Source: Hysterangium stoloniferum
Taxonomy: Eukaryota > Basidiomycota > Agaricomycetes > Hysterangiales > Hysterangiaceae
Assembly (NCBI GenBank): GCA_015178975.1
Contig: WHVD01000220.1
Coordinates: 48,879 to 112,878 of the forward strand
DNA: 64,000 bases
Direction of reading: 5' to 3'
Below are positions 3,396 through 62,870 of the stretch, piece after piece. The number at the start of each line of letters is the position of its first letter. Position 1 is the first letter of the stretch. The notes under the pieces were generated by a model, which saw only the letters and a list, made by a program, of their open reading frames with translations, did no database searches and was not told the origin of the DNA. Position numbers and translations under genes: made by a program.

Positions 3396-3399
3396 AATT

Positions 3400-8126: not shown

Positions 8127-9000
8127 TTGTAGAGTCTACTAGCAGGTTAGAGAAGAGGAAAGAGACGTCGTAAGCGTATATAAACAGAGAGTGGCGGAGG
8201 AATCAAATAACCCAGCTTCTGGATGCCACTGTGCACGGGCGTGGGGAACGCAGCCGAAATCGTACCGTATCAATGGCGGCCGGTGCCACAACGGCTACTT
8301 AAAAACTCCTTTTGTTCAAGATACAAGGATACAATACAACTATCTTTCCCCAGAAGCTTATCGTAAACGCGGCACGGGTTCCGGTGACAGGTACATGCGA
8401 ATTGATCAAGCTAGCTCAAAAAGGCTCCTTATTCAATCAATTTTCCGGTGGTGCACATGTATTATCAATCCATGTGAATATGCTTTTTCAAAAGGCAGAA
8501 TTCAATTGCATTTTCTTGCATTGAAGGGCTAGAATTCAAATGTTCATTTGGTTGAAAGGAGATTCAAAGCAGGTTGGTTGCCAAAAAAATTAATTTAAAT
8601 ACGCGGCTTACGTTTCAGACGTGGTGTGGCAGTCAATCAGGGTGAGTTCCGTATTTCAGGAATACGGAACACGAATGAGCGTATGTACATTATTATAACC
8701 AACGCTATAGTTTAGATCTATATGGTAAAGTTACAGATAAAACACCGGACGTGGATATTATCACACTTGTATCATTGCATCCACCAAGAATAAACAAGCC
8801 AAGAATCACCCGTCTATTTACTACAAAGTATGATACCAATCTCAAAATTACTGAGCTTAAAGCAATATTTTCCAATCAAAGCGAAGATAAGACGTGTGAA
8901 TCAGAATCGAAGTGCAGGATATCCTATATCTTCATGTTCTCTTTTGTTGAGCCTGCTGACATAAAACAATAAGATATCACATCAACGGAGTTATATCGGA
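8127..9000. other. Intergenic region upstream of the dehydratase-like gene
   Basis: This holds the promoter of the minus-strand gene starting at 8126 and the 3' end of the next minus-strand gene. Short open frames at 8191-8532 and 8751-8972 have no recognisable similarity and are probably chance. Confidence 0.4.
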
Positions 9001-23934: not shown

Positions 23935-24354
23935 GTCCCGCAATACAATCGTAAGTTGGCGGATTGACGCACACAACATTCCCTCTTCGCTTATAATCAT
24001 AGATATGAACGTGCAATTAGATTAATAGATTTGATTTCATATATGTACTGTAAGGGAGTGAGACTCCCTACACAATTTGGTAATATTTAGTCTCCATTAT
24101 TGACCACATCCCATTGTAGTCCACATCCTATTGTAGTCCACATCCCATTGTTGCTCACATCCCATTGTTCTCCACTAGTATATATTATGTACATGTGGAT
24201 TTCAATACAGTAGTGGTTTTATTCCCCATCACTCATTCTAATGTCTGTCTGCACCTGCAGCAGATACTAGTCTTACAGTACAATGAATACAGTTTTATAG
24301 TCCGAGTATGAAATATGGAAAGAAAGAAGGAGAATAACAGAAAATCCAGGACTT
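23935..24354. other. Intergenic region with short tandem repeat
   Basis: No gene is visible. A 17-18 bp tandem repeat lies at 24104-24175. Confidence 0.5.
24104..24175. repeat. 17-18 bp tandem repeat, four units
   Basis: Four imperfect copies of CCACATCCCATTGTAGT follow each other from 24104. The last two are changed to TTGCT and TTCT at the ends. Confidence 0.8.
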
Positions 24355-26180: not shown

Positions 26181-28187
26181 CTAATATAGACCAAGCTTTT
26201 TTCGCAGTCGTATGAATTGTGGGCCTTCCAGTGCCTTCGTGAATATGTCGGCTACATTTTCTTTCGTATGAATATACTTCAGTGCCAACTCGTTTGATCC
26301 AGTACGTTCCGGAAGAAAATGGTACTTGATATCGATATGTTTGACTCGATCATGTAGTAGTGGATCTTCTGAGAGGCATATGGCCGCATTATTGTCACAG
26401 TGGATCGTAGTGGGACCATTCATGGCTATATTGACGCCTTCTAGTAATGTTCGTAGCCATGCATTTTCCTTTGCTGCTGAGAAGGCGGCTATATATTCTG
26501 CCTCGCATGAAGATGCAGCCACTGTTTTTTGTTTTTTGGTGGACCAAGACAATACACCTGAACCTAAAGAAAACGCGAACCCCCCCACACTGCGACGTGT
26601 ATCGGGGCAATTGGCCCAGTCAGAATCACTGTACCCAAAAAGAGTAAGGGGATTGGGGCCACCGAGGTGGAGTTGCAGGTCCTGGGTACCTTTGAGATAT
26701 CGGACGACACGAACAGCGGCATTCCAATGTATGAAGGAATAGCAGTTGAGGAATTGGGAGAGTTGTTGAACGGCATAGGAGATGTCTGGGCGTGTTGAGA
26801 TGGCCAGGTAAAGAAGGGATCCGACAAGAGAACGATAGGGGAATTTAGTCAGTGATAACTTTTCATCTGGAGAGAGTGTGTGATCTACGCGGCATAATTT
26901 GAGGCCTGGGGCCATGGGCACAGAGAGAGGGGTAGCACTACTCTGCCCAAATTGGGTGATTATTCGGTCAATGAGGGCCTTTTGGGAAAGCTGAACCTCA
27001 TGTAGATGTCGATTCCGTTCCACAGCAATACCCACAATAAATTGTACTTCACCCATATCAGAGATAATCCAAGCTTGTTTCAATTGCACTTTGAAGGACT
27101 CGTTGGCGGTCTTGGTTGATGCTATAGATAGAAAATCGTCCACATGGACGGCAGCGATAACGATGCCCGAGTTGTCTATTCGGTAGTAGATGCAAGGTTC
27201 GCAAGGTAACTGGTGGAAACCCCAAGACAGCATGTGGTCATGCATGGTGCGGTTCCATATGCGGCCAGCTTGTTTCATCCCATAAAGTCCCCGCACTAAT
27301 TTCCACACCCAGTCTTCCTTACCCTCCTCCTCGAATCCTTCGGGTTGGAACATGTACTGTGTCTCCTCCTCAGGGAGAAGTCCATACAGGAAAGCAGTTT
27401 TAATGTTGATTTGCTGTGCATCCCAACCTAGATGAGCTGCAATGTGGAGCAGTATACGCCAAGACTCCATGCGGGCTGTAGGGGATGTAGTTTTGCTGTA
27501 GTCACGTCCATAGACTTGTTCAAAGCCCCAAAAGACAAGGTGGGTTTTCCGCCGGTAAACAGCACCATTAGCATCCCGTTTGACATGGAAGATGGGCTTT
27601 CCACGGTGAATTTTCTGGCCAGTTGGGACTTCTGATCGTGGGACTAGAATGTAGACCCCCATAGACTTAAGAGAATCCAGTTCATCCTGGAAACTTTTAC
27701 GCCAATCTGATCCATGAGTAGAAGACCGGGCCTCCTCCCAAGTTTGTGGATCAGGTTCAAAATCATCCAAGGGAGGGGCACTGTTCAAATCGGAGATGGC
27801 TGCCAATATATCGTCCTGATGGGAAGGAGGGGAAGTTGCAGTCGGTGTGGTAGGGGCGGGTGGGCCAGGAGCAGGGTCAGTCGGCTGATGGAGCTGTTGT
27901 ATGTCTTGGCAACGCTGTTCCCGCTGTGACCGGACACGAACTGCACTGTCTAGGGACTGCTGGATGGCCTTTGTCAAACGTGAGGGATGATCCATGGGCT
28001 GCTGCAGCAGCCGTGTGGACCGGCGAACTGGGTCTGGCACTGGTATGGCTGGAGGAATGACAGCCTCCATATTGCCAGTATTCAGGTCGTCTGGGGGTAT
28101 TATTTCACCTGTTGGGATGATGTCATCTGAAGGCTCAAGGTGTGGTATTTGTGGTAACATAGGAATAGATGGAGATGGTAGCGCCAA
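26181..28187 (-). CDS. Copia reverse transcriptase-RNase H ORF
   Basis: A 668-codon frame contains the copia reverse transcriptase (KPIFHVKRDANG, YMFQPEGFEE, LVRGLYGMKQAGRIWN, VHVDDFLSIAS) and RNase H (YSDSDWANCPDTRRSVGGF, SSCEAEYIAAFSAAKE, KHIDIKYHFL, ADIFTKAL). The frame is open further upstream to about 28285. It overlaps the gag-integrase frame, so a -1 shift between about 28290 and 28250 is needed to join them. Motif A reads INIKTAFLYG where the family has Asp before the second Ile, so the first catalytic Asp appears to be replaced by Asn. The active-site box is HVDD rather than YVDD. Confidence 0.85.
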   Translation of the reverse strand: MALPSPSIPMLPQIPHLEPSDDIIPTGEIIPPDDLNTGNMEAVIPPAIPVPDPVRRSTRLLQQPMDHPSRLTKAIQQSLDSAVRVRSQREQRCQDIQQLHQPTDPAPGPPAPTTPTATSPPSHQDDILAAISDLNSAPPLDDFEPDPQTWEEARSSTHGSDWRKSFQDELDSLKSMGVYILVPRSEVPTGQKIHRGKPIFHVKRDANGAVYRRKTHLVFWGFEQVYGRDYSKTTSPTARMESWRILLHIAAHLGWDAQQINIKTAFLYGLLPEEETQYMFQPEGFEEEGKEDWVWKLVRGLYGMKQAGRIWNRTMHDHMLSWGFHQLPCEPCIYYRIDNSGIVIAAVHVDDFLSIASTKTANESFKVQLKQAWIISDMGEVQFIVGIAVERNRHLHEVQLSQKALIDRIITQFGQSSATPLSVPMAPGLKLCRVDHTLSPDEKLSLTKFPYRSLVGSLLYLAISTRPDISYAVQQLSQFLNCYSFIHWNAAVRVVRYLKGTQDLQLHLGGPNPLTLFGYSDSDWANCPDTRRSVGGFAFSLGSGVLSWSTKKQKTVAASSCEAEYIAAFSAAKENAWLRTLLEGVNIAMNGPTTIHCDNNAAICLSEDPLLHDRVKHIDIKYHFLPERTGSNELALKYIHTKENVADIFTKALEGPQFIRLRKKLGLY

Positions 28188-30628
28188 TGAGGGAGCGGTG
28201 GATTCATTGATGGTTGGAGGTTGAACCCCCCCTTCATGGCTCTCAATGAACCTAACTGAAAGGAGAGTAAGATCTGCTGTGACCTACGGTTATAGCAACG
28301 GTAGCTCTTGGATTCAGAGTCATAGCCCAGTAGTACGCATTCCACAGAGCGTTCGTATATTTTAGGATTGTGTTTGTTAAGGATTAGGACAAATGCACGA
28401 CACCCAATTTCCCGCAGATGGGTGAGATTTGGTGGTCGCCCATTCCATATCTCCCAAGGGGTTTTTCCCTGTAAGGCCTTAGATGTGGTTCGGACATGTA
28501 AGTATGCAGATGTGCGATAAAATTCATCCCAAAATTGGGGGGGCAAACCTGCATAAAAACGCATGCTCCGTGCCTTTCCCATTAGTGTACGATGTATATG
28601 TTCGACTCTCCCTATATGAGCAGAGGTGTAGGGTGCAGTAAATTCTTGAGAGGATCCTCGTGACAACAGCCAATCCCGCATTTGGGCACTCCTCAACTCC
28701 CCATTATCTGTCCTGTAAGTGCCCACACGGATGCCAATTTCAACTTCACGGGCCAGCTCCCAAGCCTGCAAAGTGGGGAAAGCGTCACTCTTGTGCTTCA
28801 ATGGGTAACTCCATATATAGTTCGAAAAATCATCCACAATGTTCATTACATATAGGGCTCCTGAACGCGATGCCACATCATTGGGTCCTGCCAAATCAAC
28901 CCAAACCTTTCCAAGCTTTCTATCCGACTTATGCCCTTCACCTGAAAGTCGTGCTTTGGGAACGGTTGACCGTGTCTGTTTACCCAAGATACAGGCATCA
29001 CACTTTGGAATGGTGTGATGGGGGTTGGCTGGCATACCTTTTATGGTACTGGCATGGATCATGTCCACGACTGATTGATAGTTCGCATGGCCAAGTCGGC
29101 GGTGCCAGGTCGTAAGGTCAGGAGAACCATGGGCATGGAAGGCAGTGTCATTCATGGGGGAAGAATCAGGATGGATGGAGAGAGAGTATAGGTTTTTGTT
29201 GGGTAGCAGTGTTCCTGTCGCAATGGTGTCACCGGTAATATTGGTGAGCCAACACTTTGATTCGTTAAAGTGGGCAGTAATTTTTGATTCCTTTGCGAGA
29301 CAGTGAACAGAGACAAGGCGAACATTAGCATCTGGGATGTGTAGCACATTAAATAAGTCCAGGTAGGTCCCCCCTTTTGTATGTAGCCGAATGTCCCCGA
29401 TACCAGTCACAGTGACAGAAAACCCTCCCAGCCCTCTTACAGTTCGATTGGGAATTGGCCGAATGGATGAAAAATCGCTGCTGTGAGGGGAGATGTGACT
29501 GCTAGCACCAGTGTCAAGCCAGAAAGGACATGTGCCTGGTGTGTGAGTTGTGGAGGGGGTGAGGTACGATTGGTCATCTTCAAAAGCCATCCATCCATCA
29601 TATTCAATAGCGTCCTGTGGGACAGAAGGCAGGGGAATGGCAATACCGGCAAAGGAGGGGTCTGATGGTGGTGGTTTATCCATATATGCAACATATACAT
29701 TACCATCTGCCCCCTTTATATTGACTGTATATTTTTTGGTTTCTGGTGAGGCCTCCCGCTTTTTTCTTCGAGCATCATCGTCCCTCTTCCTAGCTGCTCG
29801 TGATTCCTCTAGTGACTTCCCAGCCATCCCCCCTTTGTCCGATATGCAATACGAGGCAGAATGGCCTGGTTTCTTGCAATTGGAACACGTTGGGTAACGT
29901 CTCGGCTGTGAGGCCACAAGCACAATCGCATCACTGGCAGCAGTGCGCCTGGAGTCTGCCTCAAGAATTCGTTGTTCACTTTCGAGGAGGGTCAGGATTC
30001 GGGCATAAGAGTAGGGTGCAGATTTGGTGGATTCGGAGAGATTGCGGGTGATAAGGGACCGGAGGTGCGGGAATGCGGTAGGAGAGTTGAGGATGGCAAT
30101 GCATGTGAGCAAGTCCTGAGTGAGGTCCCCCATTTCAAAAGCACGGTGGATTGCAGCACGAATCGCAGCAGCAGTGATGGGTAACGGGGTGTCCTTTGTG
30201 CACTCTGTAGTGAGTGCATCCTGAATGAGTTGGACTTGTCGTATGGGACCTTCATTGCGGTGCCGGGACAACAGTGCAGTCCAACAGGCCTGTGCCCCAT
30301 GGATGGGTTCAGCAAAATCCCACTCATCTTTGGATAAAGTGGACAGGATAATGGCATGGGAGAGGGCATCATTTGAGGCCCAGTTGTCCAACGCAATGAC
30401 TTCCAAAGGGTCAGGTTTTCTGGCAGTGCCCAGGGCATAAGCGAGGAGGCCAGTAATGGTAAGGTAATGTTTAGCATGACGGTACCACTCTTTATAATTA
30501 CCAATATTTTTGTCTAGCTTGGCCTTGGTATATGTCAATGACGTCCAGAGAAGTGGGACAGATGGTATGGATGTCATGAACGGGCGACTCCCGCCCTCTG
30601 ATACTTTGTCTGTGGGGATAGTAGCCAT
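28100..30628 (-). CDS. Copia Gag-protease-integrase ORF
   Basis: An 842-codon frame begins 77 bp after the 5' LTR. Gag occupies about 1-240, with a zinc knuckle CSNCKKPGHSASYC at 248-261. The aspartic protease motif LDTGASSH is at about 371-378. The integrase zinc-binding HHCC motif uses His 509, His 514, Cys 543 and Cys 546. The catalytic core follows, with Asp 578 (WVDLAGP), Asp 641 (YRTDNGEL) and Glu 676 (RVEHIHR). Family similarity stops near RRSQQILLS; the last 60 or so residues are out-of-frame sequence. The gag-pol frame change is either a programmed shift or a mutation. Confidence 0.87.
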   Translation of the reverse strand: MATIPTDKVSEGGSRPFMTSIPSVPLLWTSLTYTKAKLDKNIGNYKEWYRHAKHYLTITGLLAYALGTARKPDPLEVIALDNWASNDALSHAIILSTLSKDEWDFAEPIHGAQACWTALLSRHRNEGPIRQVQLIQDALTTECTKDTPLPITAAAIRAAIHRAFEMGDLTQDLLTCIAILNSPTAFPHLRSLITRNLSESTKSAPYSYARILTLLESEQRILEADSRRTAASDAIVLVASQPRRYPTCSNCKKPGHSASYCISDKGGMAGKSLEESRAARKRDDDARRKKREASPETKKYTVNIKGADGNVYVAYMDKPPPSDPSFAGIAIPLPSVPQDAIEYDGWMAFEDDQSYLTPSTTHTPGTCPFWLDTGASSHISPHSSDFSSIRPIPNRTVRGLGGFSVTVTGIGDIRLHTKGGTYLDLFNVLHIPDANVRLVSVHCLAKESKITAHFNESKCWLTNITGDTIATGTLLPNKNLYSLSIHPDSSPMNDTAFHAHGSPDLTTWHRRLGHANYQSVVDMIHASTIKGMPANPHHTIPKCDACILGKQTRSTVPKARLSGEGHKSDRKLGKVWVDLAGPNDVASRSGALYVMNIVDDFSNYIWSYPLKHKSDAFPTLQAWELAREVEIGIRVGTYRTDNGELRSAQMRDWLLSRGSSQEFTAPYTSAHIGRVEHIHRTLMGKARSMRFYAGLPPQFWDEFYRTSAYLHVRTTSKALQGKTPWEIWNGRPPNLTHLREIGCRAFVLILNKHNPKIYERSVECVLLGYDSESKSYRCYNRRSQQILLSFQLGSLRAMKGGFNLQPSMNPPLPHWRYHLHLFLCYHKYHTLSLQMTSSQQVK

Positions 30629-30686
30629 AGAACAAATGAAAAAAAACGCTGTGAAAAAAAATAGAGATTTCCTTTTTTTTTAAAAA

Positions 30687-32520: not shown

Positions 32521-32859
32521 TGTGGAACTGATTGATGATGTATGCTTATGTGTGAGGAGTATGCTTTTACCACAGTATTCATTGTGGTAAAACACTCCTT
32601 TTATTTTATTTATATTTTACATATTCTATTCATAATTTTCTATCTTTCATATTCTTCGAATATTGCATATTTCATTAGTTCGAAGCATTGTGTATACTTG
32701 TGGGTGCACTCAGCACCAATTAGAACTCAGACACACTTTAACCCAAGAACCACCACTCGTAAGACACAAACTAGGTCTACTACGAGCGGTGATCAGGGTA
32801 ACGTGTCAGCTACCACATAGGTAGCATTATCTGAACTACTGAATACTTCTAGCCTCAAA

Positions 32860-33540
32860 CACTGGAGGCACCCCAAGATTTTTGGATTTGCAAAACCTTC
32901 AGAAAATCTTGCTATTTGGCCAAATTTGCTAAGCATTCTTTGAACTGGAAAAACTGTTTGAAAATCTTGGGTTTTAGTAGGTTTTTCTGAGGACAAAAAT
33001 TGTATCTGAAAACGGTGATCAGGAAATTCTAAGGAAACATTGTTGGAAATAGCCTATTTTCTGTGGATTTTCTAAATAGGAAAATTCTTAAAAAACCCTG
33101 GGTTTTGTTAGGGTTTTTCCACCCAACAGAATTCTATGAAAAATGTAATAATTTGCCTAGAGAAATCAATTGAAAACCACATATTTCTACTCAATTTTTC
33201 TGCTCAGGGAATTGGGTGAAAACTGTAATTTTTTGCCAGGAAAATCTTGTGCCAAGACAAAGTTTTGTTAATGTTTTGTCAAGGGGAAAACCATAATAAA
33301 ATTGACAATTTAATTATATGGGAAATCATTGAATAATTATAGATTTCAATAAGATTTTCCTTGACCACAAACACTATGGAAATTCAAAAAATGTGTTGGT
33401 GAAATCTTGAAGAAATGAACAATTTCACATGAGTTTCTTAAAGGTTTTTCAAGATGAGAAACCTTGAACTGATTTTTCCTGATTGAGCATGATTCACAAT
33501 TGTTTGGAATGGTACAGTGGGATTCACAAATATTTAAGAG
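32860..33540 (+). repeat. Left arm of the foldback element
   Basis: AT-rich, non-coding unique sequence. The first 170 bp or so also match the small MITE at 52416-52791. It pairs with 37964-38658 in inverted orientation. Confidence 0.88.
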
Positions 33541-35044
33541 GATTGTTTAGATTCAGGTAGATTCTTTTAGATTCTTTAGATTCTTTTAGATTCAGATAGA
33601 TTCTTTGAGATTCAGATAGATTCTTTTAGATTCACATAGATTCAGATAGATTCACATAGATTCAGATAGATTCAGATAGATTCACATAGATTCACATAGA
33701 TTCACATAGATTATTTTAGATTCTTTTAGATTCACATAGATTCAGATAGATTCTTTTAGATTCTTTTAGATTCACATAGATTCAGATAGATTCTTTTAGA
33801 TTCAGATAGATTCATTTAGATTCAGATAGATTCAGATAGATTCTTTTAGATTCAGATAGATTCTGTTAGATTCAGATAGATTCAGATAGATTCAGATAGA
33901 CTCTTTTACATTCAGATAGATTCAGATAGATTCTTTTAGATTCTTTTAGATTCTTTTAGATTCACATAGATTCAGATAGATTCTTTTAGATTCACATAGA
34001 TTCACATAGATCCTTTTAGATTCTTTTAGATTCACATAGATTCATTTAGAGTCAGATAGATTCTTTTATATTCAGATAGATTCTTTTAGAGTCACATAGA
34101 TTCAGATAGATTCTGTTAGATTCAGATAGATTCAGATAGATTCAGATAGACTCTTTTAGATTCACATAGATTCCGATAGATTCTTTTAGATTCAGATAGA
34201 TTCTTTTAGATTCTTTTAGATTCAGATAGATTCTTTTAGATTCACATAGATTCAGATAGATTCTTTTAGATTCTTTTGGATTCACATAGATTCAGATTGA
34301 TTCTTTTAGATTCTTTTAGATTCTTTTAGATTCAGATAGATTCTTTGAGATCCAAATAGATTCTTTTAGATTCAGATAGATTCTTTTAGATTCAGATAGA
34401 TTCTTTTAGATTCAGATAGATTCTTTTAGATTCAGATAGATTCTTTTAGATTCAGATAGATTCAGATAGATTCAGATAGATTCAGATAGATTCACATAGA
34501 TTCACATAGATTCAAATAGATTCAAATAGATTCAAATAGATTCAAATAGATTCAAATAGATTCACATAGATTCAGATAGATTCTTTTAGATTCAGATAGA
34601 TTCTTTTAGATTCTTTTAGATTCTTTTAGATTCTTTTAGATTCAGATAGATTCTTTTAGATTCTTTTAGATTCAGATAGATTCAGATAGATTCAGATGGA
34701 TTCAAATAGATTCAAATAGATTCAAATAGATTCAGATAGTTTCTCTTAGATTCACATAGACTCTTTTAGATTCACATAGATTCAGATAGATTCTTTTAGA
34801 TTCTTTTAGATTCAGATAGATTCAGATAGATTCAGATAGATACTCTTAGATTCACGTAGACTCTTTTAGATTCACATAGATTCTTTTAGATTCACATAGA
34901 TTCAGATAGATTCTTTTAGATTCACATAGATTTAGATAGATTCTTTTAGATTCAGGTAGATTCAGATAGATTCTTTTACATTCACATAGATTCAGATAGA
35001 TTCTTTTAGATTCACATAGATTCAGATAGATTCTTTTAGATTCA
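33541..35044 (+). repeat. Decamer satellite, left array (about 150 units)
   Basis: The unit is TTCNNNTAGA with strict 10-bp spacing. The variable triplet is nearly always AGA, TTT, ACA or AAA, rarely ATT or TGT. Some stretches alternate two variants with a 20-bp period (34360-34450). Confidence 0.93.
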
Positions 35045-35064
35045 CCCTAAACCATAAAAAAATC
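35045..35064. other. Centre of the palindrome
   Basis: A spacer of about 20 bp (ACCCTAAACCATAAA) separates the two inverted decamer arrays. It is the symmetry point at which strand sense of the decamer flips. Confidence 0.8.
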
Positions 35065-37963
35065 TAAGAGAATCTATATATCTGAATCTATGTGAATCTA
35101 AAAGGATCTGTGTGAATCTATCTGAATCTATCTGAATCTATCTGAATCTATCTGAATCTATTGGAATCTAAAAGAATGCATGTGAATGTAAAAGAATCTA
35201 TCTGAATATATGTGAATCTCAAAGAATCTATCTGAATCTATCTGAATCTAAAAGAGTCTATGTGAATCTAAGAGAATCTATCTGAATCTATGTGAATCTC
35301 AAATAATCTATGTGAATCTATCAGAATCTAAAAGAGTCTATATCTGAATCTAAAAGAATCTATCTGAATCTATCTGAATCTATGTGAATATAAAAGAATC
35401 TATGTGAATCTAAAAGAATCTATCTGAATCTATGTGAATCTAAAAGAATCTACCTGAATCTAAATGAATCTATCTGAATCTAAAAGAATCTATCTGAATC
35501 TACGAGAATCTACCTGAATCTAAAATAATCTATCTGAATCTATGTGAATCTAAAAGAATCTATCTGAATCTATCTGAATCTATCTGAATCTATCTGAATC
35601 TAAAAGAATCTATCTGAATCTACATGAATCTACCTGAATCTAAAAGAATCTATCTGAATCTATGTGAATCTAAAAGAATCTATGTGAATTTAAGAGAATC
35701 TATCTGAATCTAAAAGAATCTAAAAGAATCTAAAAGAATCTACCTGAATCTAAAAGAATGTATGTGAATCTAAAAAATCTATCTGAATCTAAAAGAATCT
35801 ATCTGAATCTATCTGAATCTATCTGAATCTATCTGAATCTATCTGAATCTATCTGAATCTCAAAGAATCTATCTGAATCTAAAGAATCTATCTGAATCTA
35901 TGTGAATCTAAAAGAATCTATGTGAATCTAAAAGAGTCTATGTGAATTTAAGAGAATCTATCTGAATCTAAAAGAATCTAAAAGAATCTAAAAGAATCTA
36001 TGTGAATCTAAAAGAATCTATCTGAATCAATGTGAATCTAAAAGAATCTACCTGAATCTAAAAGACTGTATGTGAATCTAAAAGAATCTATCTGAATCTA
36101 TCTGAATCTATCTGAATCTATCTGAATCTATCTGAATCTATCTGAATCTCAAAGAATCTCAAAGAATCTATCTCAATCTAAAAGAATCTATCTGAATCTA
36201 TGTGAATCTAAAAGAGTCTGTCTGAATCTATGTGAATCTATGTGAATCTAACAGAATCTATCTGAATCTAACAGAATCTATCTGAATCTAACAGAATCTA
36301 TCTGAATCTAACAGAATCTATCTGAATCTAACAGAATCTATCTGAATCTAAAAGAATCTATCTGAATCTACAAGAATCTATCTGAATCAACAAGAATCAA
36401 TCTGAATCTAAAAGAATCTATCTGAATCTAAAAGAATTTATCTGAATCTAAAAGAATATATCTGGATCTAAAAGAATAGATGTGAATCTAAAAGAATCTA
36501 TCTGAATCTAAAAGAATCTATGTGAATCTAAAAGAGTCTATGTGAATCTAAGAGAATCTATCTGAATCTATTTGAATCTATTTGAATCTATTTGAATCTA
36601 TTTGAATCTATCTGAATCTAAAAGAATCTAAAAGAATCTATCTGAATCTAAATGAATCTAAATGAATCAATCTGAATCTATGTGAATCTAAAAGAATCTA
36701 TCTGAATCTAAAAGAATCTATCTGAATCTAAAAGAATCTATCTGAATCTAAAAGAATCTATCTGAATCTAAAAGAATCTATCTGAATCTAAAAGAATCTA
36801 TCTGAATCTAAAAGAATCTATCTGAATCTAAAAGAATCTATCTGAATCTAAAAGAATCTATCTGAATCTAAAAGAATCTATCTGAATCTAAAAGAATCTA
36901 TTTGGATCTCAAAGAATCTATCTGAATCTATCTGAATCTATCTGAATCTATCTGAATCTATCTGAATCTATCTGAATCTATCTGAATCTAAAAGAATCTA
37001 TCTGAATCTAAAAGAATCTATCTGAATCTATGTAAATCTAAAAGAATCAATCTGAATCTATGTGAATCCAAAAGAATCTAAAAGAATCTATGTGAATCTA
37101 TGTGAATCTAAAAGAATCTATCTGAATCTAACAGAATCTATCGGAATCTATGTGAATCTAAAAGAGTCTATCTGAATCTATCTGAATCTATCTGAATCTA
37201 ACAGAATCTATCTGAATCTAAAAGAATCCATCTGAATCTATGTGAATCTAAAAGAATCTATCTGAATATAAAAGAATCTATCTGAATCTAAATGAATCTA
37301 AAAGAATCTAAAAGAATCTATCTGAATCTATGTGAATCTAAAAGAATCAATCTGAATCTAAAAGAATCTATCTGAATCTATGTGAATCTATCTGAATCTA
37401 TGTGAATCTAAAAGAATCTAAAAGAATCTAAAAGAATCTATCTGAATCTATGTGAATCTAAAAGAGTCTATCTGAATCTATCTGAATCTATCTGAATCTA
37501 TCTGAATCTATCTGAATCTATCTGAATCTATCTGAATCTATCTGAATCTATCTGAATCTATCTGAATCTATCTGAATCTATCTGAATCTATCTGAATCTA
37601 TCTGAATCTATCTGAATCTATCTGAATCTATCTGAATCTAAATGAATCTAAATGAATCTATGTGAATCTATGTGAATCTAAAAGAATCTAAAAGAATCTA
37701 TCTGAATCTATGTGAATCTAAAAGAATCTAAAATAATCTATCTGAATCTATGTGAATCTATCTGAATCTATGTGAATCTATCTGAATCTATGTGAATCTA
37801 TCTGAATCTATGTGAATCTAAAAGAATCTATCTGAATCTCAAAGAATCTATCTGAATCTAAATGAATCTATGTGAATCTCAAAGAATCTATCTGAATCTC
37901 AAAAAATCTATCTGAATCTAAAACAATTTATTTGAATCTAAAAGAATCTACCTGAATCTAAAA
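35065..37963 (-). repeat. Decamer satellite, right array (about 290 units)
   Basis: This is the same decamer in reverse orientation (TCTANNNGAA on the plus strand), almost twice as long as the left array. It includes a homogenised run of the single variant TCTATCTGAA from about 37463 to 37640 and a 20-bp-period alternating run at 36690-36900. Frame slips of a few bases occur near 35341, 35775 and 35880. Confidence 0.93.
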
Positions 37964-38658
37964 CAATCCTCTTAAATATTTGTGAATCCCACTGTACCAT
38001 TCCAAACAATTGTGAATCATGCTCAATCAGGAAAAATCAGTTCAAGGTTTCTTATCTTGAAAAACCTATAAGGACCTCATGTGAAATTGTTCATTTCTTC
38101 AAGATTTCACCAACACATTTTTTGAATTTCCATAGTATTTGTGGTCAAGGAAAATCTTATTGAAATCTATAATTATTCTATGATTTCCCATATAATTAAA
38201 TTGTCAATTTTATTATGGTTTTCCCCTTGACAAAACATTAACAAAACTTTGTCTTGGCACAAGATTTTCCTGGCAAAAAATTACAGTTTTCACCCAATTC
38301 CCTGAGCAGAAAAATTGAGTAGAAATATGTGGTTTTCAATTGATTTCTCTAGGCAAATTATTACATTTTTCATAGAATTCTGTTGGGTGGAAAAACCCTA
38401 ACAAAACCCAGGGTTTTTTAAGAATTTTCCTATTTAGAAAATCCACAGAAAATAGGCTATTTCAAACAATGTTTCCTTAGAATTTCCTGATCACCATTTT
38501 TAGGGTTTTCAGATACAATTTTTGTCCTCAGAAAAACCTACTAAAACCCAAGATTTTTAAACAGTTTTTCCAGTTCAAAGAATGCTTAGCAAATTTGGCC
38601 AAATAGCAAGATTTTCTGAAGGTTTTGCAAATCCAAAAATCTTGGGGTGCCTCCAGTG
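37964..38658 (-). repeat. Right arm of the foldback element
   Basis: Inverted partner of 32860-33540, differing by about ten substitutions and one indel of roughly 10-13 bp. It ends GCCTCCAGTG. Confidence 0.88.
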
Positions 38659-39179
38659 AAACTGTAACAGTCGAGGCCTCCACTCGAACCATTGCACTCG
38701 TTGACTCCTTCGTCATCTCATGCTCCTTCTCTCACTTTCTCTTATATTGCACCGAGTAGGTCAATATCCTTCCTTTCTACTCATTTCTTCGTATATAGAA
38801 CGGTCAGAACTTCCGCCACTCTTCACATTATGGTAAAATGACCAGGATTACAATTTGTTGTACCCACAAATGTCTACCAGAGGCTGTCGGGAGGCGGTGT
38901 AAGTTTCACCTGTTTGATCATTTTATTATATCCCCGAACGGGTCAGCAGCACGAATATTTAACAACATTACATTAGTAGTAGGTACTATGGGACAGATCA
39001 CATTTATATTTTGTTTAAAGTCACAAAAACACCATGATCACCACTCATGGCAAGTGATGACCAAACTGACAATTTTCCAGAGATATATGAGGTCATAGCT
39101 TGCTATTGACCCTTGGTAAATCAAATTCCATGCAGGGAAAGGCTGGATATTAAAGTGGTGGCCTGCACCACATTAAAAA

Positions 39180-42424: not shown

Positions 42425-44028
42425 CAGTGACTTACAAAACGTATCCAATGTTTTGTAGTTTCAGCTTATATATGCTATATCCCAGTAGATAAAATAGTAG
42501 AAATCGCCAAAATATTTGTGAACATGACCTATCATGTATATATTTAGATGGTAGAACTATATTATGTAATATCCATATATGGAAACACTATAAATATTTT
42601 AATGGAGAGGGTTCATTGGATACGTTTTGTAACTGACAGGTTCTGGCATGAAAACCATATGCCTATGTTGATTGTTTGCATTTGTTTATGTTTTTCAACA
42701 TGTCATGTGATCATTCTATACTACAGTATAAGTTGAAGGGCTTTCTCAGCTAAGGTTCCCTCAATTCTAACCATGCATCCCCTTTCCACTGCTGCCCAGT
42801 ATGAGATCCTTTCTCTACTTGATGCTGGCCATTCTGCCAGACAAATTTCAGTTTCTACTGGCTATAGCTATGCTACTATCTCTAGACTTCATTCTAAACA
42901 CCATTCCCACCTTTCTAAGTCCTCTGGTGGTCACCCTTCCAAACTCTCCACAGCCAACATCCATATTGCACAACGCCTTATCAGCTCTGGAAAGGCTGAT
43001 ACAGCTGTAGATGCAACGAAGGCACTTTGCACTATCACCAACCAGTCACTCAATCCTCAAACAGTGCATCATTGACTCAAGGCAGCTGGGATGAAGCCTG
43101 TGGTAAAGAAGAAAAGGCCTCTTCTTTCTAAGAGGGATAAAAAGGAGAGAATGGATTTTACTTTGGCATATCAGGATTGGACTGTGAAGGATTGGAAGAA
43201 CGTGGTGTGGTCTGATGAGACCAAAATTAATAGGCTGGGGTCAGATGGCAGGAAGTGGGTGTGGAAAAGGGCAGGGGAGGGCTTGAGTGACAGGCTGGTT
43301 GAGGGAACCCTGAAGTTTGGTGGTGGATCTTTAATGGTTTGGGGGTGCATGCTGTGGGAGGGGGTTGGGTATGCATGCAAGATTGATGGAAGGATGGATG
43401 GGGATCTCTACATCCAGATTCTGGAGGATGACCTGCAAGCCAGTCTTAAGGACTATGGTAAATCTGCCAATGGTATCATCTTCCAGCAGGACAATGACCC
43501 CAAGCATACCTGTAAGAAGGCCCAGTATTGGTTCCAAGAAAATGGTTTCAGGGTTCTCTCATGGCCAGCACAGTCTCCTGACTTGAATCCCATTGAACAC
43601 CTATGGAATGACCTGAAGAGGAGGTTGGCAGGGTATGAGAATGCACCCCAGGGGATGGAAGAGTTGTGGGAGAGGGTGGTGGATGAATGGTACAAGATTG
43701 ATGAAAAGGTGTGTCAGGATTTGATTGAAAGTATGCCTAGGAGGGTTTCAGATATATTAAAGGCAAAGGGTGGCTACACTAAGTACTAAATACTAGTAAT
43801 TTCCTGCCTAAATGTGTCAGTTACAAAACGTATCCAATGAACCCTCTCCATTGAAATATTCATAGTGTTTCCATATATGGATATTACATAATATAGTTCT
43901 ACCATATAAATATATACATGATAGGTCATGTTCACAAATATTTTGGTGATTTCTACTATTTTATCTACTGGGATATAGCATATATAAGCTGAAACTACAA
44001 AACATTGGATACGTTTTGTAAGTCACTG
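42425..44028 (+). mobile_element. Tc1/mariner element with IR/DR ends
   Basis: The 1604-bp element is flanked by TA at 42423-42424 and 44029-44030. Ends begin CAGTGACTTACAAAACGTAT. Each terminal inverted repeat is about 220 bp and contains the core ACAAAACGTATCCAATG twice, once at the outer tip and once about 190 bp inside, an IR/DR layout as in Sleeping Beauty. It is inserted in the solo LTR. Confidence 0.93.
42773..43789 (+). pseudogene. Tc1 transposase with one internal stop
   Basis: One continuous frame of about 338 codons is broken only by TGA at 43073-43075. The N-terminal helix-turn-helix region (42773-43072; AAQYEILSLLDAGHSARQIS) is followed by the DD34E catalytic domain. Asp is in VWSDETKINR, Asp in FQQDNDPKHT, and Glu in SPDLNPIEHLWND, with 34 residues between the last two. 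The C-terminus is GGYTKY. The stop lies where Arg (CGA) is likely, a CpG transition. Apart from it the copy looks intact and recent. Confidence 0.9.
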
Positions 44029-50639: not shown

Positions 50640-53600
50640 GGCTGTGACCTGTGGGGGGCAAGCCCCCACCATACTACCACCCCACAACTTTACTTGGTCA
50701 CTTTGCAACCTCCTTATATGGAAGCCAAGTTGTTTGCCCTGTATTCTACATGACCTCAAACAGGGCATGAGTCCCCTTTCCTGTACAAGCAACTGTCTTA
50801 TCAGCAACCCATTCCCTGGATGACTGACCAAAACCTGAGATTTGTCACAACTGTCTGCCAGGAAATAGACCATCGTTGTTTGAAATGTGGATCCGAAGCA
50901 AGGATGCATGAAACGAAGGATTAATCCCTTGTTTCTTCAACTCTGGTGACAATTCCAGCTCATAAGTGGCCCCCGGCTCCAGTTCACGAATGATCCTAAA
51001 TGGCCCAATATATTTAGGCACTAATTTTCATGTGTGATTCTTTGGTAACCGTAAGTTCTTTGTAGACAAATATACAAGATCGTTGACCCCAAATGCAACA
51101 GCCTGCCGATGACGATTTGCCTGCCTGGTTTGCTTGACCCAAGTGGCAATAATTGCATCGTGAGCAGCCATGATTGCCAGCTTAATTCGCACTGTGAACT
51201 CTTGAACCCCAGGGTATGTAGTGTCATTATCCCAAATAAGAGGACATGGCAACTGACCATAGTTTAGGACAAATGGCGAAAAGCTGGTAGTTTGAGAGGT
51301 TGCACTATTCATCGCAAACTTGATAGCTGGCAATTTCGAGACCCAATCTCTCTGATTTGGTGAGACACACTGCCACAACATTTGCATCATAGTCCGATTC
51401 GCCCGTTCAGTAGCTCCATCTGTCTGAGGGTGGTATGCCGATGACATCCGTAACTCAACTCCAATCACCCGGTGAAGCTCTCTCCAGAAAATGCTAGTAA
51501 ACAGTGAGTCTCAGTCACTTACAATCCTTACCAGTAATCCATCCAACTTATAAACATGTTTGAATATGACTTCTGCCATGTGACTAGCAGTATAGTTGGT
51601 ATGTGTGGGCACCAAATGGACCATACATGTTAAATGGTCAATTATAACGCAAATGCTGTCAAACTCCCCATGGTGATTTTTGGACACTGGCAACGGACCA
51701 ACAAAATCAATGCCAATTGCCTCCCACGGCTGTGAAGGCACTTCCAAACTGCAGAGGAATCCCTGTGATTTCTGTGTCTCCAATTTTGATGTGGCACAAA
51801 GACTGCATGAGTTGCAGAACAACTCAACATCCTTCGTCATCGATGGCCACCACACTGTGGACCGCAAATATGTGGCAGTTTTCCGTGCCCCTAAATGGGC
51901 CAAAATCGAATGTGCCTGTGAGATTACCATTTTTCACATGCGTCTATTGCCCACAGTAAGGTCAGGTATACAAAGGAGTTTGGTCCCAGCCATATTGAAG
52001 AACAAATGGCTGTCCTGCAACTTGAAACCTTTATACTCCCTCAGTGCGACCAGTATTTTTGAAAAGAAGTGGTCAGTACCATACCTTCCCCAAAATATGT
52101 TGGGAATGTCCAGCCCTGGATTAGAGTCTGAACCAACATTCGCTAGAGAGAAATTGGAGAATGATCCCCCTTGTGACTGGTGCCTCCTGCCCTCCATTGT
52201 CAATGGTGGGTCAATCTCCTCAGAAGGGCTGGGTCCTGTAGCATTGCTAGGTGTACCTGCCCTCATCCCCTGTGGTGGGTTCTCTGTGGGATGACCAGGG
52301 GAACCTTCCCCAGTCTGATCCACGGTATGTTCTTTTGACTTCCTGCCACATTGTCCCCGTGATACTATTCCAGCTAATGTTGCATATGACGGACATGGAC
52401 GAGTGGCCACCCTACCACTGGGGGCACCCCAAGGTTTTTGGAGTTGGAGAACCTTCCAAAAATCCTACTATTTGGCCAAATTTTCTAGGAATTCTTTGAA
52501 CTGATAAATGTTTTGAAAATTTCAAGTTTTAGCAGGATTTTCCAAGGTGGAAAATCATATCTGAAAACTTTAAATATTTGTATCAAAAAACTTTGACTAC
52601 TGATGTTTCCTCAAATTTCATGATACAAATATTTAAAGTTTTTAGATATGATTTTCCACTTTGAAAAATTCTACTAAAACTTAAAAATTTTCAAACAATT
52701 TATCAGTTCAAATAATTCTTAGAAAATTTGGCCAAATATTAGGATTTTTGAAAGGTTTTCAAACTCCAAAAACCATTGGATGCCTCCAGTGTACTCGACC
52801 TCCTCGATGGTTCCTTGGCGACCAGTACCGTAGACCTGGTGTACAATGGTGTTGACACACCTATCCCCCATACCCTTGGAGCTGGCTTTGCTCCCTTCTC
52901 TTCATCATCCAAGAGTGGCGCATTAGTTACATACTCAGATTCCACCCTTACAATCCCCAAAGGTTTGTTACTGTATATCCGCAACAGCGCATCAGCAAAC
53001 ATATTCGACTCCCCGGTAATAAAGTGAATATCAAAGTCAAACTCATTCAAAAGGTCCAGCCAATGTGTCTGTCTTGGAGATAGGCTCTTCTGTGTAAGGA
53101 TATACTCTATACCTTTATGGTCAGTACACACTCGAAATTTGACGCCTAGTAACTGAGGACGAAACTGCTTCAAGGACTCGACAATTGCCAACAACTCTTG
53201 CTCATGCAGAGGATAGTTCTGCTGAGCTGAGTTGAACTTCCTGGACCAGAAGGATACCACTGCCACTGTCCTTACATCATCACCTTGACTCAGGATACCG
53301 CTGGCGCCAGTTAAGCATGCATCTGTAACCAGGTTGATAGTTGGGTGACCTGGTGAGTAGTTCAAAGCAATCTGATACCGATCTCAATGAGCATGAACAA
53401 TACGCTTGACATCCTCAAAAGCACATTGTTCGGTTGCACCCCATCACCACGCCTTGTTGACACTGGTAAGTGTGGCCAGATTGGCCATGGGAATTCGAAT
53501 GCCCTCGCAGTTATTAGCCAGATAGCCAACTGCCCCCAGAAAACCAGCCAAGAGGGCCTTATTTGTAGGTACTTTCCAGTTGGCTACTGTATCTACCTTA

Positions 53601-54753
53601 TGTGGGTCCATCTTTATTCCTTTATCATTTATCACATGCCCTAATAAGTTCAATTCTGAGGTGAACAAATGCATCTTGTCGACTGCTAGGTATAGTTTCT
53701 CCTGACAGAGCACCTTGAAGATGGTTCGGAGGTGCTTTACGTGATCTTCAATGGAATCCGAATATACCACAATGTCGTCAAGGTATACATCCATAAACAC
53801 CCCAATGTATGATGCAAAAAGATGGTTCATGAGAGTCTGATATGTGGATGGTCCATTGCAGTCACCAATCTGTAATGTCAAACTTTCCATGGTCCCATCG
53901 GGAGAAGTGAACAATGTGCAGTGAACATGCTCAGGTACCACTCAGATTTGCTCATATGCGTCTTTGCCCCCAATGAGGCTGTGGTACTTGTGACACACAA
54001 CATTCTGCAGGATGGCCTCGATATCCAGCAAGGGTGTCGTTAATTTATAGGTATTGGCATTCTGTTCGTGCTTGTCGACCACTGTGCATATCCGTAAAGT
54101 TCCGTCAGCATTTGGTGGTTTTGGGATGATAAGCATTGGACACGCATTTGTACCCATTGCTACCCTCCACCGACCATTTCGTAAGTAGGCATTCTTCTTA
54201 TCCTGCCACAGCTGATGCATAGCTTCAGGACATTTAGATGGTCGCCATGAATAGACGTTTGCCTCGTCTATCAGCAGAATAGTATGGTTGACTGCCCGCA
54301 AGGGGGGTAGCCACGTGGATGCTGTATCAGGGTCCAGACCAGCTGCTTCAGCCTGCAAATCAGCCCTTAACCTTTCCAACTCATCCTCAAAAATTTCCGC
54401 CGCTGCTGAGTGTAGTACTGCTACAGTGTCCCCTTCGAGGGGAAGTGGTAGGTTTGACCTGATATTAACTCGTGTAGGATTCAACCCAAGCATTACTCGG
54501 TGTTGAAAAATAAATGGAGTCCCCAATATAGGTCATAGGAATCAAGGTTAGCTACATCAAAATGGTGAGAGCAATTTATACCCTGATAGGTAAACTTAGC
54601 CATTGTGGAAAAATTGATTTTTGACCGTGATCCATGTACAGCCAACTGAAGGGTCAGTGGTTCTTTAGTAACCCACAGCTGATCAACCAAGGCCATTGAC
54701 ATAAAATCTGCCAATGACCTGCTATCAATGTGTGAAGGGTATGCATATATCAT
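50640..54753 (-). pseudogene. Gypsy pol remnant (protease, RT, RNase H, integrase)
   Basis: The protease fragment HIDSRSLADFMSM at 54753 has lost the catalytic DSGAS-like motif. A one-base deletion near 54525 follows. Reverse transcriptase spans 54526-53444 (MLIIPKPPNADGTLRICTVV, VYLDDIVVYSDS). RNase H is at about 53365-52792 (VTDACLTGASGIL). The integrase zinc domain (HSILAHLGARKTATYLR, CNSCSLCATSK) and core (IGIDFVGPLP, SSAYHPQTDGATERANR) lie at 51930-51028, and a chromodomain-like tail at 50909-50640. In-frame stops TGA occur at 53942-53944, 53444-53446, 53384-53386, 51934-51936, 51511-51513 and 51028-51030, plus a TAG at 50746-50748. Confidence 0.85.
52416..52791. mobile_element. 376-bp MITE related to the foldback element
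   Basis: It begins CACTGGGGGCACCCC and ends with the matching GGATGCCTCCAGTG. The 3-bp target duplication TAC is at 52413-52415 and 52792-52794. The two arms of about 185 bp fold on each other and match the outer 170 bp of 32860-33540 and its partner. There is no decamer array. It lies in the gypsy pol frame; removing it with one TAC copy restores a continuous frame across the site. Confidence 0.92.
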
Positions 54754-54761
54754 GATTGGAC

Positions 54762-55369
54762 TGTGGAATAATACATATATTATAGTATTTTATTATTTAG
54801 TTCTTACTCTTTTTCCCTAACTCTCTATATCTTTCGAGCATACCCGTATTTCTTAGTTCGAAGTCTTGTGTATATCTATGGGCGCTCTCAGCGCTAAATC
54901 TCAGACATCTTTTACCCAGCAGACACCACCTCGAAAACAACCCAGACGTCGAATAGTGAGAGGTGTCAAGGGTAATATCTAAGCTACCTATAAGGGTAGC
55001 GTTCTCTAGTCTCCTGACATACTTTGGACTCGAACCGCGAAGGTCGAGTTCCACTCTAAGGTCTTTGTGCTCGTCGACGCTATAGTCGACTCACGCTATT
55101 ATCTCTTTACTTCAGATATTCGGCTTCTCGTTGATTATCTATTTACATTTAGCTACGAGTTGCACCGTAAAGGTCAACTCTTTGTTCTCTCATTCTAGCC
55201 GTCAAGAGCAACTGTACAGTTGCTCTTGTGACGTGTAGCGTGTCTCCTTGCTAGTACTGTCAGTCTAGCAATCTACAGTATTGTACTGAATGGTCAATAC
55301 TTTCTAATAGTAGTTGAATAAACACTATTCTTCATATATTGAGCGGTAGGAATCTAACGACTCTTCACA
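54762..55369 (+). repeat. 5' LTR of the plus-strand gypsy element
   Basis: The 608-bp sequence begins TGTGGAATAATAC and ends CTCTTCACA. A related older LTR is at 32521-38827. The left flanking pentamer is TGGAC (54757-54761), which should reappear after the 3' LTR outside the window. Confidence 0.75.
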
Positions 55370-55370
55370 G

Positions 55371-55388
55371 TGGTGATCCGAGCCGGAC
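55371..55388 (+). promoter_or_regulatory. Primer binding site of the gypsy element
   Basis: TGGTGATCCGAGCCGGAC follows the LTR end by one base, the usual position of a tRNA-complementary site. Confidence 0.6.
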
Positions 55389-55445
55389 CGTTCTTTTCCT
55401 ACGAGGAAAAACTTATTATTTGACTACTAAGACCTGAACATGTGA

Positions 55446-58400
55446 ATGACTACGGGCAAGAATCAAACACCTAGGCCTTCATCAACGCCGAGTAGCTCCA
55501 TGCCTCGTCAAAAATCTTCTAACCTAGAACCACCCCGTAACGTCACCCCAAGGAAGTCTTCGTCGACTTTTCAAGGATCAGCTCCTCCGGAGGATTCCCC
55601 CAGAGTAGTAGCTGGATCGTCTACGAACATTCCCCAGCTTCCTCAAGGATCAGCTCCTCCAGAGGATTCCCCCGGAGTAGTAGCTGGATCGTCAACGAAC
55701 ATCCCCCCCGATCCACCTGAGGAACGCTCATCACTCGAGCAGTTGGACACCCCTGGAGCTAACGTTGAGCCTAATCGAGCACCCACGCCTGTTCTCAGAT
55801 TCCCTCCGAGACAGGTCATCCTTAAGCAGTTCCTCGGAGGTCATATGGTTTACGCCCAGCCCATCGACTACAAATGGGATATGTACTACACCGATTGAAT
55901 CCCCGAGGATCAGGTTACCCCCTTCGTGGAGGAGTACAGTACAGATTACCCTATTCTACCGGAGACTGTAGCAGTCTGGTTAGGGCGTTATCAAGCAATT
56001 TTATCGGTGTGAGATTTATTCACGCGACCAGGGAACCTTGAGGATTTGACCCAATCAATTCCTGAATGGTCGAACGAGGTGACGACCACTATGGAAGGAG
56101 GAAGAAGAATTCTCAAGCGGGAGGTGTTTTCTCTGTTCCTTGAAGCACTTCGTACGCATGATGATGTGTTGCAGATCCTGCATGTCCTGCTTAGTGGAGA
56201 TCATGTTGTGCCTAAGGTTGACTACCAGTACATGTACATCCATATGTTGGAGGAGTCTCTCAATGGAATCACGCCAAATCTATCGCTGGCATACCTCACT
56301 TTAAGGGGTCGGTTGAAGCGGAACCAAAGAAGACTTGATAAGATGGTTTTAGAGGTACTCCTCCCCTATAACGACTCGATCCAGGTCCCTGATTCGCCTA
56401 TCTCCATGACCAATTCGTTCATTCGCAACTTAAACGGGTCCCCTGATACTCGTTTTCTGCATTCTCTCAACCGTCCTGTAATATTGGAGGATTTTCCACT
56501 GGACTTGAGGACGCAGGTGATAGAACGCCTTCAGGAGAAGAGGATTGAGGTCTGCGCTCCCTTCCATCAACCCCAGCCGTGTCGACTTCTGAATGTGACG
56601 GAGATCGAGAGACAAATCGCGATGGAACCGGGCCTAACGTCTCTCCAGGGAGATCACCGCTCTCGCGTCGCATTTGAGAGAGTCTCCAACAGCCCTAACT
56701 TCAGGAATGAAGTGACCACTCTCAGAAACCGATCAGTCACCAACAAGGGTCGACCGTCCTTCTCCATGGCATTCACTGAGGGCATAGCTGGCCCAGTTGC
56801 TGGTCGAGGATCGCTTAATTCAGACGGTCCCCGCCATTCTCTACCGATCGCTTCAAACCCTTTCTTGCCATCAGGAGGACCCCCTAGCGATTCATCCGGG
56901 AGTTCGAATACTTCGGACCAGGGAGGGAACTCAGGACGTGGGGAGTGCCACAATGGAGTGCCTAATACCCCTTTTCGAACTCTGATGTGGTCTCGAGCTA
57001 GCGCGCTTATTGATGACTTACCTAAGGACAAGAAGGTCACTCTTAACACCAACGACCTTAAGATCAAATGGTCTGATCTCCCTGAATACAACGGAGCTCA
57101 ATCCGAGGCCCTGGACTATATCATGGACATCATGAGTCTCGCGGAGATATCAGACTCTATGAGTGCGATCTTAGGAGTTGCTCTGCCAAGACGACTCACG
57201 GGGCACGCTAAGGTCTGGTGGAGCACCTTAGACCATGAGCATCGTACTGAATTCAGTCAATCTCATGGGTCGTTTCTTTGGGGTATCGTCGAAGGATTGC
57301 TTGGAACCCGTTGGCGTGAATCCTTAGCCTTAGAATGGGAAGCTATGAAATTTCGACAGGCTGGTCACGATCGTGAGACACCCGTCCACTATATCCAATG
57401 GAGAGTTAAACTTTATCATTTCCTGTACGGGTTCCACCAGGACAGAGGGGATGAGACACGCAGACTCATTCTCACGCTGCCTACGGAATGGCTCTACCTT
57501 CTTCAAGGACAACCCATCAATGATATCATGAGTTTACAGACTTATGCTAATAACCTGCAAGAAGCTCTGATTAACGCTTGGGTCCAAACACACCGGGAAC
57601 GTTACAGGTTCCAGAAACCGCGCATAATGTTATCGGAGGGTCAAGAATTGGATTTTAGAGTCACCGGCGACTCCTCTTCACCTAACCATATTCTCGTTAG
57701 TGAGACTAACGAGAGAGGCTCAACGAGAAGGACCGTTCCGGACATCGCTGATCCAAAACAGGGAAAGCGTCAAGGAAAAATGTTCTTCGAGAGGAGTAAC
57801 AAGAGGAGTTCGGTCAAACCCACCAAGGAATGTTGGATATGTGGAAGCCCGGAGCATTTTAAAATAGATTGCCCCCACGCGGGCAAGATGTCTCATTATG
57901 TCTCTATCAATAAATGCTCTGCACAGGATATGTCAGAGGAAACTGAGGAGCAAAGGTTATATGAGGCAGTTCATGGACTATCTATACAAGGACAAGTAAA
58001 TAGCTCTGATGACGAATTGACCATTGTTCCCATTTATACACCCCAAGTCAGAGACGACTCAGTAAGAGAAGGAGATCAAATGACCGGTGAAACTCTTTCG
58101 TCTGAGGTCTACGTATCCATACTCGCTGCAGATTTTTTCGAAAAGGGAGATCGGTTGAGCGCACACCGGCAGGACCTTGAAGGCCTGACCGAGAACCACT
58201 GTCAGGTTCAGAATTATGACGAGCAAATCAACTTGGACTCACTCTGTTTACCTGGAGCTGACATTGACACATTCCCATTTGATCCTGGAAACCCCCCCGA
58301 CTTACTACCGTATGATGACTCAGATTCGGAGGACGGTGATAGCGATCCAGCCGTGGATTCCTCCTTAAAACATATTCCTTGTCGAAGCGAATGCAGGAAT

Positions 58401-62868: not shown

Positions 62869-62870
62869 AA

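Follow-up and report, generated by a model that had tools for sequence, protein, structure and literature searches.

A dispersed, non-autonomous foldback transposon family with CACTG ends and decamer satellite arrays in Hysterangium stoloniferum

We analysed a stretch of 64,000 nucleotides from the basidiomycete Hysterangium stoloniferum (assembly GCA_015178975.1, contig WHVD01000220.1, positions 48,879 to 112,878 of the forward strand), called the window in the following, which contains a palindromic element of 5799 bp at positions 32860-38658. This element is probably one copy of a young family of non-autonomous foldback DNA transposons. The family is real and dispersed in the genome, with CACTG ends and 3-bp target-site duplications. 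The observed part of this explanation comprises the ends, the 3-bp duplications, uninterrupted target sites, the dispersal, the inheritance of arms and arrays as a unit and the lack of a sizeable reading frame in the window-type copies. As in FB-like foldback elements, long inverted repeats of variable length fill most of the element and contain internal tandem repeats, and the copies are dispersed with target-site duplications.

The 15-bp terminal inverted repeat CACTGGAGGCACCCC has one exact match per strand in the window, at 32860-32874 (forward) and 38644-38658 (reverse), and the triplet AAA lies directly outside each end (32857-32859 and 38659-38661). The AT-rich left arm of about 688 bp (32860-33547, forward) lies outside the decamer array and is followed by a left satellite array of 149 decamers with the unit GATTCNNNTA (33548-35043, forward). 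A 16-bp non-decamer spacer, ACCCTAAACCATAAAA (35044-35059, forward), separates it from the right array of 283 decamers, which has the opposite orientation (35060-37960, reverse); the spacer is a conserved head-to-head junction, called centre tag here. The right arm occupies 37961-38658 (reverse). Decamers were counted as units scored as TAGATTC with at most one mismatch; they consist of GATTC and a variable part with TA at its end, most often as GATTCAGATA, GATTCTTTTA or GATTCACATA. The two arms, aligned over 749 and 760 bp, differ by 13 mismatches and by gaps at 11 positions, of which a single indel accounts for nine; they are 96.8% identical when gaps are counted. The preliminary description of this DNA had listed perfect ends, an AAA duplication, arms about 98% identical and head-to-head arrays of about 150 and 290 decamers, and all of these are confirmed.

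In the 111-Mb assembly the 15-bp end has 227 exact matches (117 forward and 110 reverse), compared to none for the reversed control, and a search with a 26-mer end allowing one mismatch gave 285 matches, of which the first 100 were listed. Among the 100 ends listed we fetched 19 other facing pairs with a length of 3.0-7.5 kb and one pair of 376 bp; fetched loci are referred to by L numbers. Exact 3-bp duplications flank all 20 fetched pairs, so that together with the window copy 21 out of 21 pairs have one, for which the probability by chance is about 10^-38 (1/64 per pair). Seven further short pairs inside the fetched loci, with one or two mismatches in at least one end, have the duplication in six cases. 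In total, a perfect 3-bp duplication is found in 27 of the 28 pairs read, a count which leaves out 10 further end pairs of about 360 bp. The preliminary description had expected such ends with 3-bp duplications elsewhere in the genome and had named a lack of other copies or a different duplication size as reasons to abandon it; neither was found.

The 27 duplications comprise 20 distinct triplets with a weak T-N-A preference, T being at the first position in 14 and A at the third position in 15 of them. For six of the 21 insertions (the window copy, L041, L046, L047, L050 and L051) we found paralogous uninterrupted target sites, by comparing the joined flanks minus one duplication with the other fetched loci and accepting sites where the triplet is present once. 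The window insertion has such sites in L052 (98.3% identity) and L014 (90%), with one 3-bp copy each. The site of L041 is found in L052, that of L046 in L017, that of L047 in L061, and that of L050 in several loci including the window at 2282-2518. For L051 it is found at 32551-32722 of the window and in L014; one side of this insertion is matched over just 22 bp. The flanks of the window copy (32570-32859 and 38662-38825) belong to a repeat into which L051 and L052 have inserted as well, elsewhere in the repeat. All of these sites are paralogous repeats of 77-98% identity and not alleles. A match of L051 in L068 (78%) was rejected since its triplet differs, and self matches of L057 were not counted since tandem repeats in the flank of this copy produce them. 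The ends, the duplication size and the uninterrupted sites together indicate a DNA transposition in which insertion is staggered by 3 bp.

The satellite of the window copy is present in 18 of the 19 long fetched copies, the other one (L044) having a different satellite. The centre tag with five flanking bases occurs at 37 places in the genome (33 exact and four with one mismatch; control 0), and L052 is a copy without the tag. A 40-base decamer dimer has 631 exact matches, and the 100 of them that were listed all lie, judged by eye, in or beside family copies, with no free satellite outside copies among these 100. Long palindromes and satellites are difficult to assemble, which lends some weight to an assembly artefact or to a local satellite folded back in place. 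Such an origin is hardly credible here, given 37 centre tags at separate places, the 3-bp duplications and the uninterrupted sites. Moreover, the pair of array lengths differs among all 18 tagged copies read, contigs reach up to 4.4 Mb and the 20 fetched elements contain no N. The artefact or in-place origin is refuted in substance.

The two arms of a copy are distinguishable. Copies were oriented by the centre tag and arm distances were taken over alignment columns 1-655; the tagless L052 was oriented by a poor arm match and retained in lineage II. In 16 copies, which leave out the window copy, L049 and L057 with their mixed arms, the nearest arm is always the same side of another copy (16/16 for left and 16/16 for right arms). 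The left and right arms of one copy are on average 2.8% apart, in lineage I (11 copies) as in lineage II (5 copies), whereas arms of the same side differ by averages of 1.7% and 0.7% in the two lineages, respectively, for left as well as for right arms. This matching of same-side arms across copies indicates that both arms are inherited together and that the palindrome moves as a unit. On a tree of 38 arms, rooted at the midpoint only, the left and right labels need 5 changes compared to a mean of 12.9 after shuffling, and none of 500 shuffles was as low.

Two groups depart from this pattern on the tree. Both arms of lineage II are nested in a branch otherwise consisting of right arms (98/92), and both arms of the window copy fall within the lineage-II left-arm clade (support 100/99). 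At 14 diagnostic columns of lineage II the right arm of the window copy is of the left type in 12 and of the right type in 2, at one of which the left arm is of the right type as well. The arms of the window copy differ by 1.3%, compared to 2.3-3.3% within the 16 copies. Since a central inversion would not yield two arms of the same type, overwriting of one arm by the other is the probable cause in both the window copy and lineage II. The right arm of the window copy is read as the overwritten one, from the diagnostic columns and the arm tree, and the high identity of its arms would be partly due to this overwriting.

The arrays behave differently from the arms. Successive exact GATTC words in 18 copies lie a multiple of 10 bp apart in 5056 out of 5108 cases. 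In these copies the left arrays have between 32 and 300 units and the right arrays between 75 and 387. Between L043 and L051 there is no difference in the left arm and one of 0.7% in the right arm, with right arrays of 261 and 387 units, respectively. Including L053, the left arms are 0-0.14% apart and the left arrays have 32, 33 and 32 units, with 250 units in the right array of L053. Arrays thus change much faster than arms, and in whole 10-bp steps. Their distance from the ends is about 470-780 bp (1077 bp in L057), and the arm of the window copy has almost no 10-bp periodicity, with a lag-10 identity of 0.30 (0.28 expected); in the arm of L044 it is 0.33 (0.29 expected). The arrays of L042, L047, L050 and L052 are interrupted by later insertions of about 0.56-1.24 kb, of which those in L042, L047 and L050 are interrelated and resemble, by eye, solo long terminal repeats (LTRs).

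The common arms also carry two other satellites. Besides satellite A of the window copy there is satellite B (GACTCTTTTG/GACTTTTTGC) in L044, L002, L015, L022 and L026, the last placed there by its similarity to L044 alone, and satellite C (GACTTTGTGT/GACACTTTGC) in L025 and L029. The A, B and C sequences tested have one of their strongest autocorrelations at lag 20 and a value well over the base level at lag 10, and their units contain GAYT; B consists mostly of head-to-tail decamers and C mostly of a 20-bp dimer. In single-strand folding the A and B units are no better than shuffles, and C is better (z -3.35). L044 (G000:C20:137610-142130) is a sister foldback of 3923 bp with terminal inverted repeats of about 1392 bp at 97.9% identity and the duplication AGT. 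It has its own 10-bp satellite, and its centre, GC-rich over about 1 kb, appears to be captured.

There are also short relatives of 141, 367-376 and 1154 bp, which have the family ends and 3-bp duplications and in which the arrays are absent. The outer 30 bp are 0.93 identical between A and the short form, 0.96 between A and B and 0.98 between A and C. Past 120 bp the identity of A to the short form drops to 0.57-0.67, and A and B share a second conserved stretch (0.98 at 301-330). Five short elements of about 375 bp are 8.5-19% apart, compared to 0-3% on same-side arms of satellite-bearing copies, and they therefore appear older than the palindromes. The existence of array-free relatives with the same ends and duplications indicates that the arrays are not needed in cis.

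These comparisons bear on the idea, put forward in the preliminary description, that a subterminal motif was amplified into the satellite. The decamers would then be amplified binding sites for a TnpA-like protein, and the satellite would be selected because longer arrays recruit more of it. The subterminal repeats of plant CACTA elements are binding sites of TnpA-type proteins (PMC2613891), and tandem repeats of Galileo are said to contain extra transposase sites (PMC4079207). Three subfamilies with shared arms and three satellites, all periodic at lags 20 and 10 and with GAYT units, fit this idea, as does the youth of the satellite-bearing form. It is weakened by seven short elements (141-1154 bp) which contain none or one of the words GATTC, GACTC and GACTT on both strands and yet have perfect 3-bp duplications, by the distance of the arrays from the ends and by the near absence of periodicity in the window arm. 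Furthermore, slippage and exchange alone can give register and homogeneity. We therefore consider selection of the satellite through binding of a TnpA-like protein possible and on balance doubtful.

The 19 window-type copies contain no reading frame longer than 135 amino acids, the longest per copy having 63-135, and the two frames above 100 amino acids (125 and 135) are made up of inserted DNA, at least in part. EnSpm elements of rust fungi have CAC..GTG termini and 3-bp target-site duplications, Plavaka elements have TGT..ACA termini with 2-bp or CATCA..TGATG termini with 2-3-bp duplications, and Kyakuja/Zisupton (KDZ) elements have duplications of 7 or 8 bp (PMC12730594). The family described here has CACTG..CAGTG ends, that is CAC(T)...(A)GTG termini that differ from those of Plavaka, and a duplication without fixed sequence that is shorter than in KDZ. 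The subterminal repeats typical of plant EnSpm/CACTA members were not seen, the arrays lying too far inside; other repeats in the outer arms were sought by autocorrelation at lags 2-60 only. Because of the published termini and duplication sizes of the three groups, an EnSpm-type transposase is favoured and is probably the one involved. The ends and the duplication fit EnSpm/CACTA and not Plavaka, and membership in CACTA is putative.

A wider protein search gave 29 EnSpm-like matches, most of them fragments. Facing exact 38-bp ends are found at G000:C533:443632-451661 (8.0 kb), C442:348569-360523 (12.0 kb) and C547:71142-94969 (23.8 kb). None of the 29 matches lies in these three pairs, which are known from their ends alone and are candidates for an autonomous partner or for nested copies.

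The Plavaka-type partner suggested in the preliminary description is disfavoured, since the reported Plavaka termini differ and one traced family lacks CACT ends. The genome has 68 Plavaka matches, and the traced family (L061, about 2628-8419 by alignment borders) starts with TTATAG and ends with CTGATG, with a possible AAG duplication and no inverted-repeat ends seen; it has open frames and three other near full-length copies 98-99% alike. A single locus from each of two other Plavaka groups and one KDZ locus (L062-L064) have weak, scattered matches to the end motif with 3-5 mismatches in 15 positions and no matching end pair with a 3-bp duplication. The PF02992 loci L065-L070 have no matching pair of ends. 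A similarity of 38-68 bp between L047, L050 and L052 and PF02992 loci is located in the later LTR-like array insertions (TGTTAGG..TAACA in L047, by eye). The GC-rich centre of L044 had suggested an autonomous copy; the frames of L044 gave no transposase, the longest having 270 amino acids and no Pfam match.

Another superfamily with 3-bp duplications, such as a relative of Harbinger, might mobilise these ends, the CACTG being coincidental. The genome contains 60 DDE_Tnp_4 matches, three of which lie 1.3, 3.9 and 5.3 kb from listed short-type ends, and the mild T-N-A preference would suit such an element. Three out of 60 within 10 kb is near chance, though, with about 1.6 expected for about 150 positions, +/-10 kb and 111 Mb, and no DDE_Tnp_4 match lies between the ends of any long pair listed. 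Furthermore, the number of distinct target triplets argues against it, and CAC..GTG termini with 3-bp duplications are the reported signature of EnSpm (PMC12730594). We regard a Harbinger-like origin as unlikely.

Several points weigh against a foldback family mobilised by an EnSpm/CACTA transposase. No transposase with these ends was found, so that of the CACTA relative proposed in the preliminary description the CACTG ends and the 3-bp duplications stand and the membership is left as a proposal. With 108 entries for matches to Plavaka, KDZ and Transposase_21, the smallest distance to the 132 listed end and tag positions is 17.0 kb, and that to 34 ends from a later pattern search is 20.9 kb; these entries stand for 151 matches, with multi-fragment matches entered once. 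The PF02992-type remains in the genome are mostly fragments. The T-N-A preference alone cannot separate EnSpm from Harbinger. Positions were listed for 100 of the 227 exact ends and for some others through later pattern searches. The short pair L001 has no duplication, both uninterrupted sites of the window copy read GAA, one base off AAA, and the exact array lengths are those of the assembly and depend on it.

Weighing both sides, we favour the foldback transposon family with the following mechanism. A transposase acting in trans, with EnSpm/CACTA as its likeliest type, would recognise the CACTG...CAGTG ends, probably within the outer 60-180 bp, and the whole palindrome would be cut out and then inserted with a 3-bp stagger. 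Between moves the arms may occasionally overwrite each other, as the pattern on the arm tree suggests, possibly by gene conversion or by template switching in a hairpin. The decamer arrays would gain and lose entire 10-bp units, at a much higher rate than that of changes in the arms. They would be dispensable for mobility, a passenger satellite that the palindromic structure allows to grow and that is perhaps favoured by binding a DNA-binding protein. The origin of the palindrome and any selection on the satellite are inferences. A bolder version, which we put forward only tentatively, is a CACTA-type lineage that persists as a self-renewing palindrome. Its arms would be re-made alike by conversion, and its 10-bp satellite would have grown and been replaced between subfamilies, with period and core kept because a transposon-encoded or host protein binds them. 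If true, new satellites in a fungal genome would be both made and carried by a mobile palindrome.

Besides the foldback element, the window contains a Ty1/copia-type retrotransposon on the minus strand with two frames (gag, integrase and RVT_2) at 26181-30679 and a frame for a Tc1/mariner-type DDE_3 transposase at 43076-43789. Retrotransposon-like frames on both strands were identified, mostly by eye from open reading frames, at 51028-55898 and 56013-62870, with an RVT_1 match at 53447-53941 and a frame without Pfam match at 56013-59825. A 17-bp tandem repeat, CCATTGTTGTCCACATC, is present in 4.8 copies at 24094-24175, and a host protein with a GRAM domain is encoded in the window. The best matches of this protein that bear a species name are in Ramaria rubella and Sphaerobolus stellatus, ranking after several unnamed ones, which points to an agaricomycete host, perhaps of the Phallomycetidae.

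In the literature listings examined, with Repbase and subscription papers outside their scope, we found no fungal or CACTA-ended counterpart among foldback elements, and a text search of papers for CACTGGAGGCACCCC gave an unrelated match only. The foldback architecture itself is already known, and its occurrence with CACTA-like ends in a fungus seems to be a new combination in these listings. About 37 oriented palindromes with separable arms, three sister satellites and array-free short relatives constitute a resource and a natural experiment on satellite birth, on the survival and re-symmetrisation of palindromes and on selection on repeats in transposon arms.

FB elements have 10-bp repeats and 9-bp duplications. 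In the family described here the duplications are of 3 bp, the ends start with CACTG, an arm contains up to 387 units and the host is a fungus. The FB/FB4 elements of Drosophila are likewise non-autonomous, with long inverted repeats that vary in length, outer ends that are conserved and minisatellite-like tandem repeats inside (PMC4022104); unlike this family, they are grouped with Mutator-type elements (PMC4079207, PMC3169594). Tetris/DAIBAM of Drosophila virilis is similar in being a foldback with internal tandem repeats, a short miniature inverted-repeat transposable element (MITE) that shares its ends and an unknown partner, and its repeats seed a satellite; it differs in its repeats of about 220 bp and duplications of 8-10 bp (PMC4079207). 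The long terminal inverted repeats of Galileo, a P superfamily element of Drosophila, also grow through tandem-repeat expansion and are remodelled, but Galileo has a P-type transposase, and in D. willistoni repeats of about 140 bp are found in 1 of 191 copies (PMC4168063). Tm1 of root-knot nematodes has foldback terminal inverted repeats with a variable number of 13-15 bp repeats and MITE-like forms, together with 9-bp duplications, a Mutator/Phantom-like transposase and asymmetric 7-bp end motifs that set it apart (PMC3169594). EnSpm/CACTA elements of fungi and plants share the CAC..GTG termini and 3-bp duplications (PMC12730594) and have short subterminal repeats bound by TnpA (PMC2613891), whereas in the present family no transposase was found, the palindromic arms are long, and the arrays are distant from the ends and absent in short copies. 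The tandem-repeat foldback elements known from Drosophila and nematodes have 8-10-bp duplications or P-type transposases (PMC4079207, PMC4168063, PMC3169594, PMC4022104). The same architecture on CACTA-like ends in a fungus and on Mutator- or P-type elements in animals may therefore be convergent and not the trait of one superfamily.

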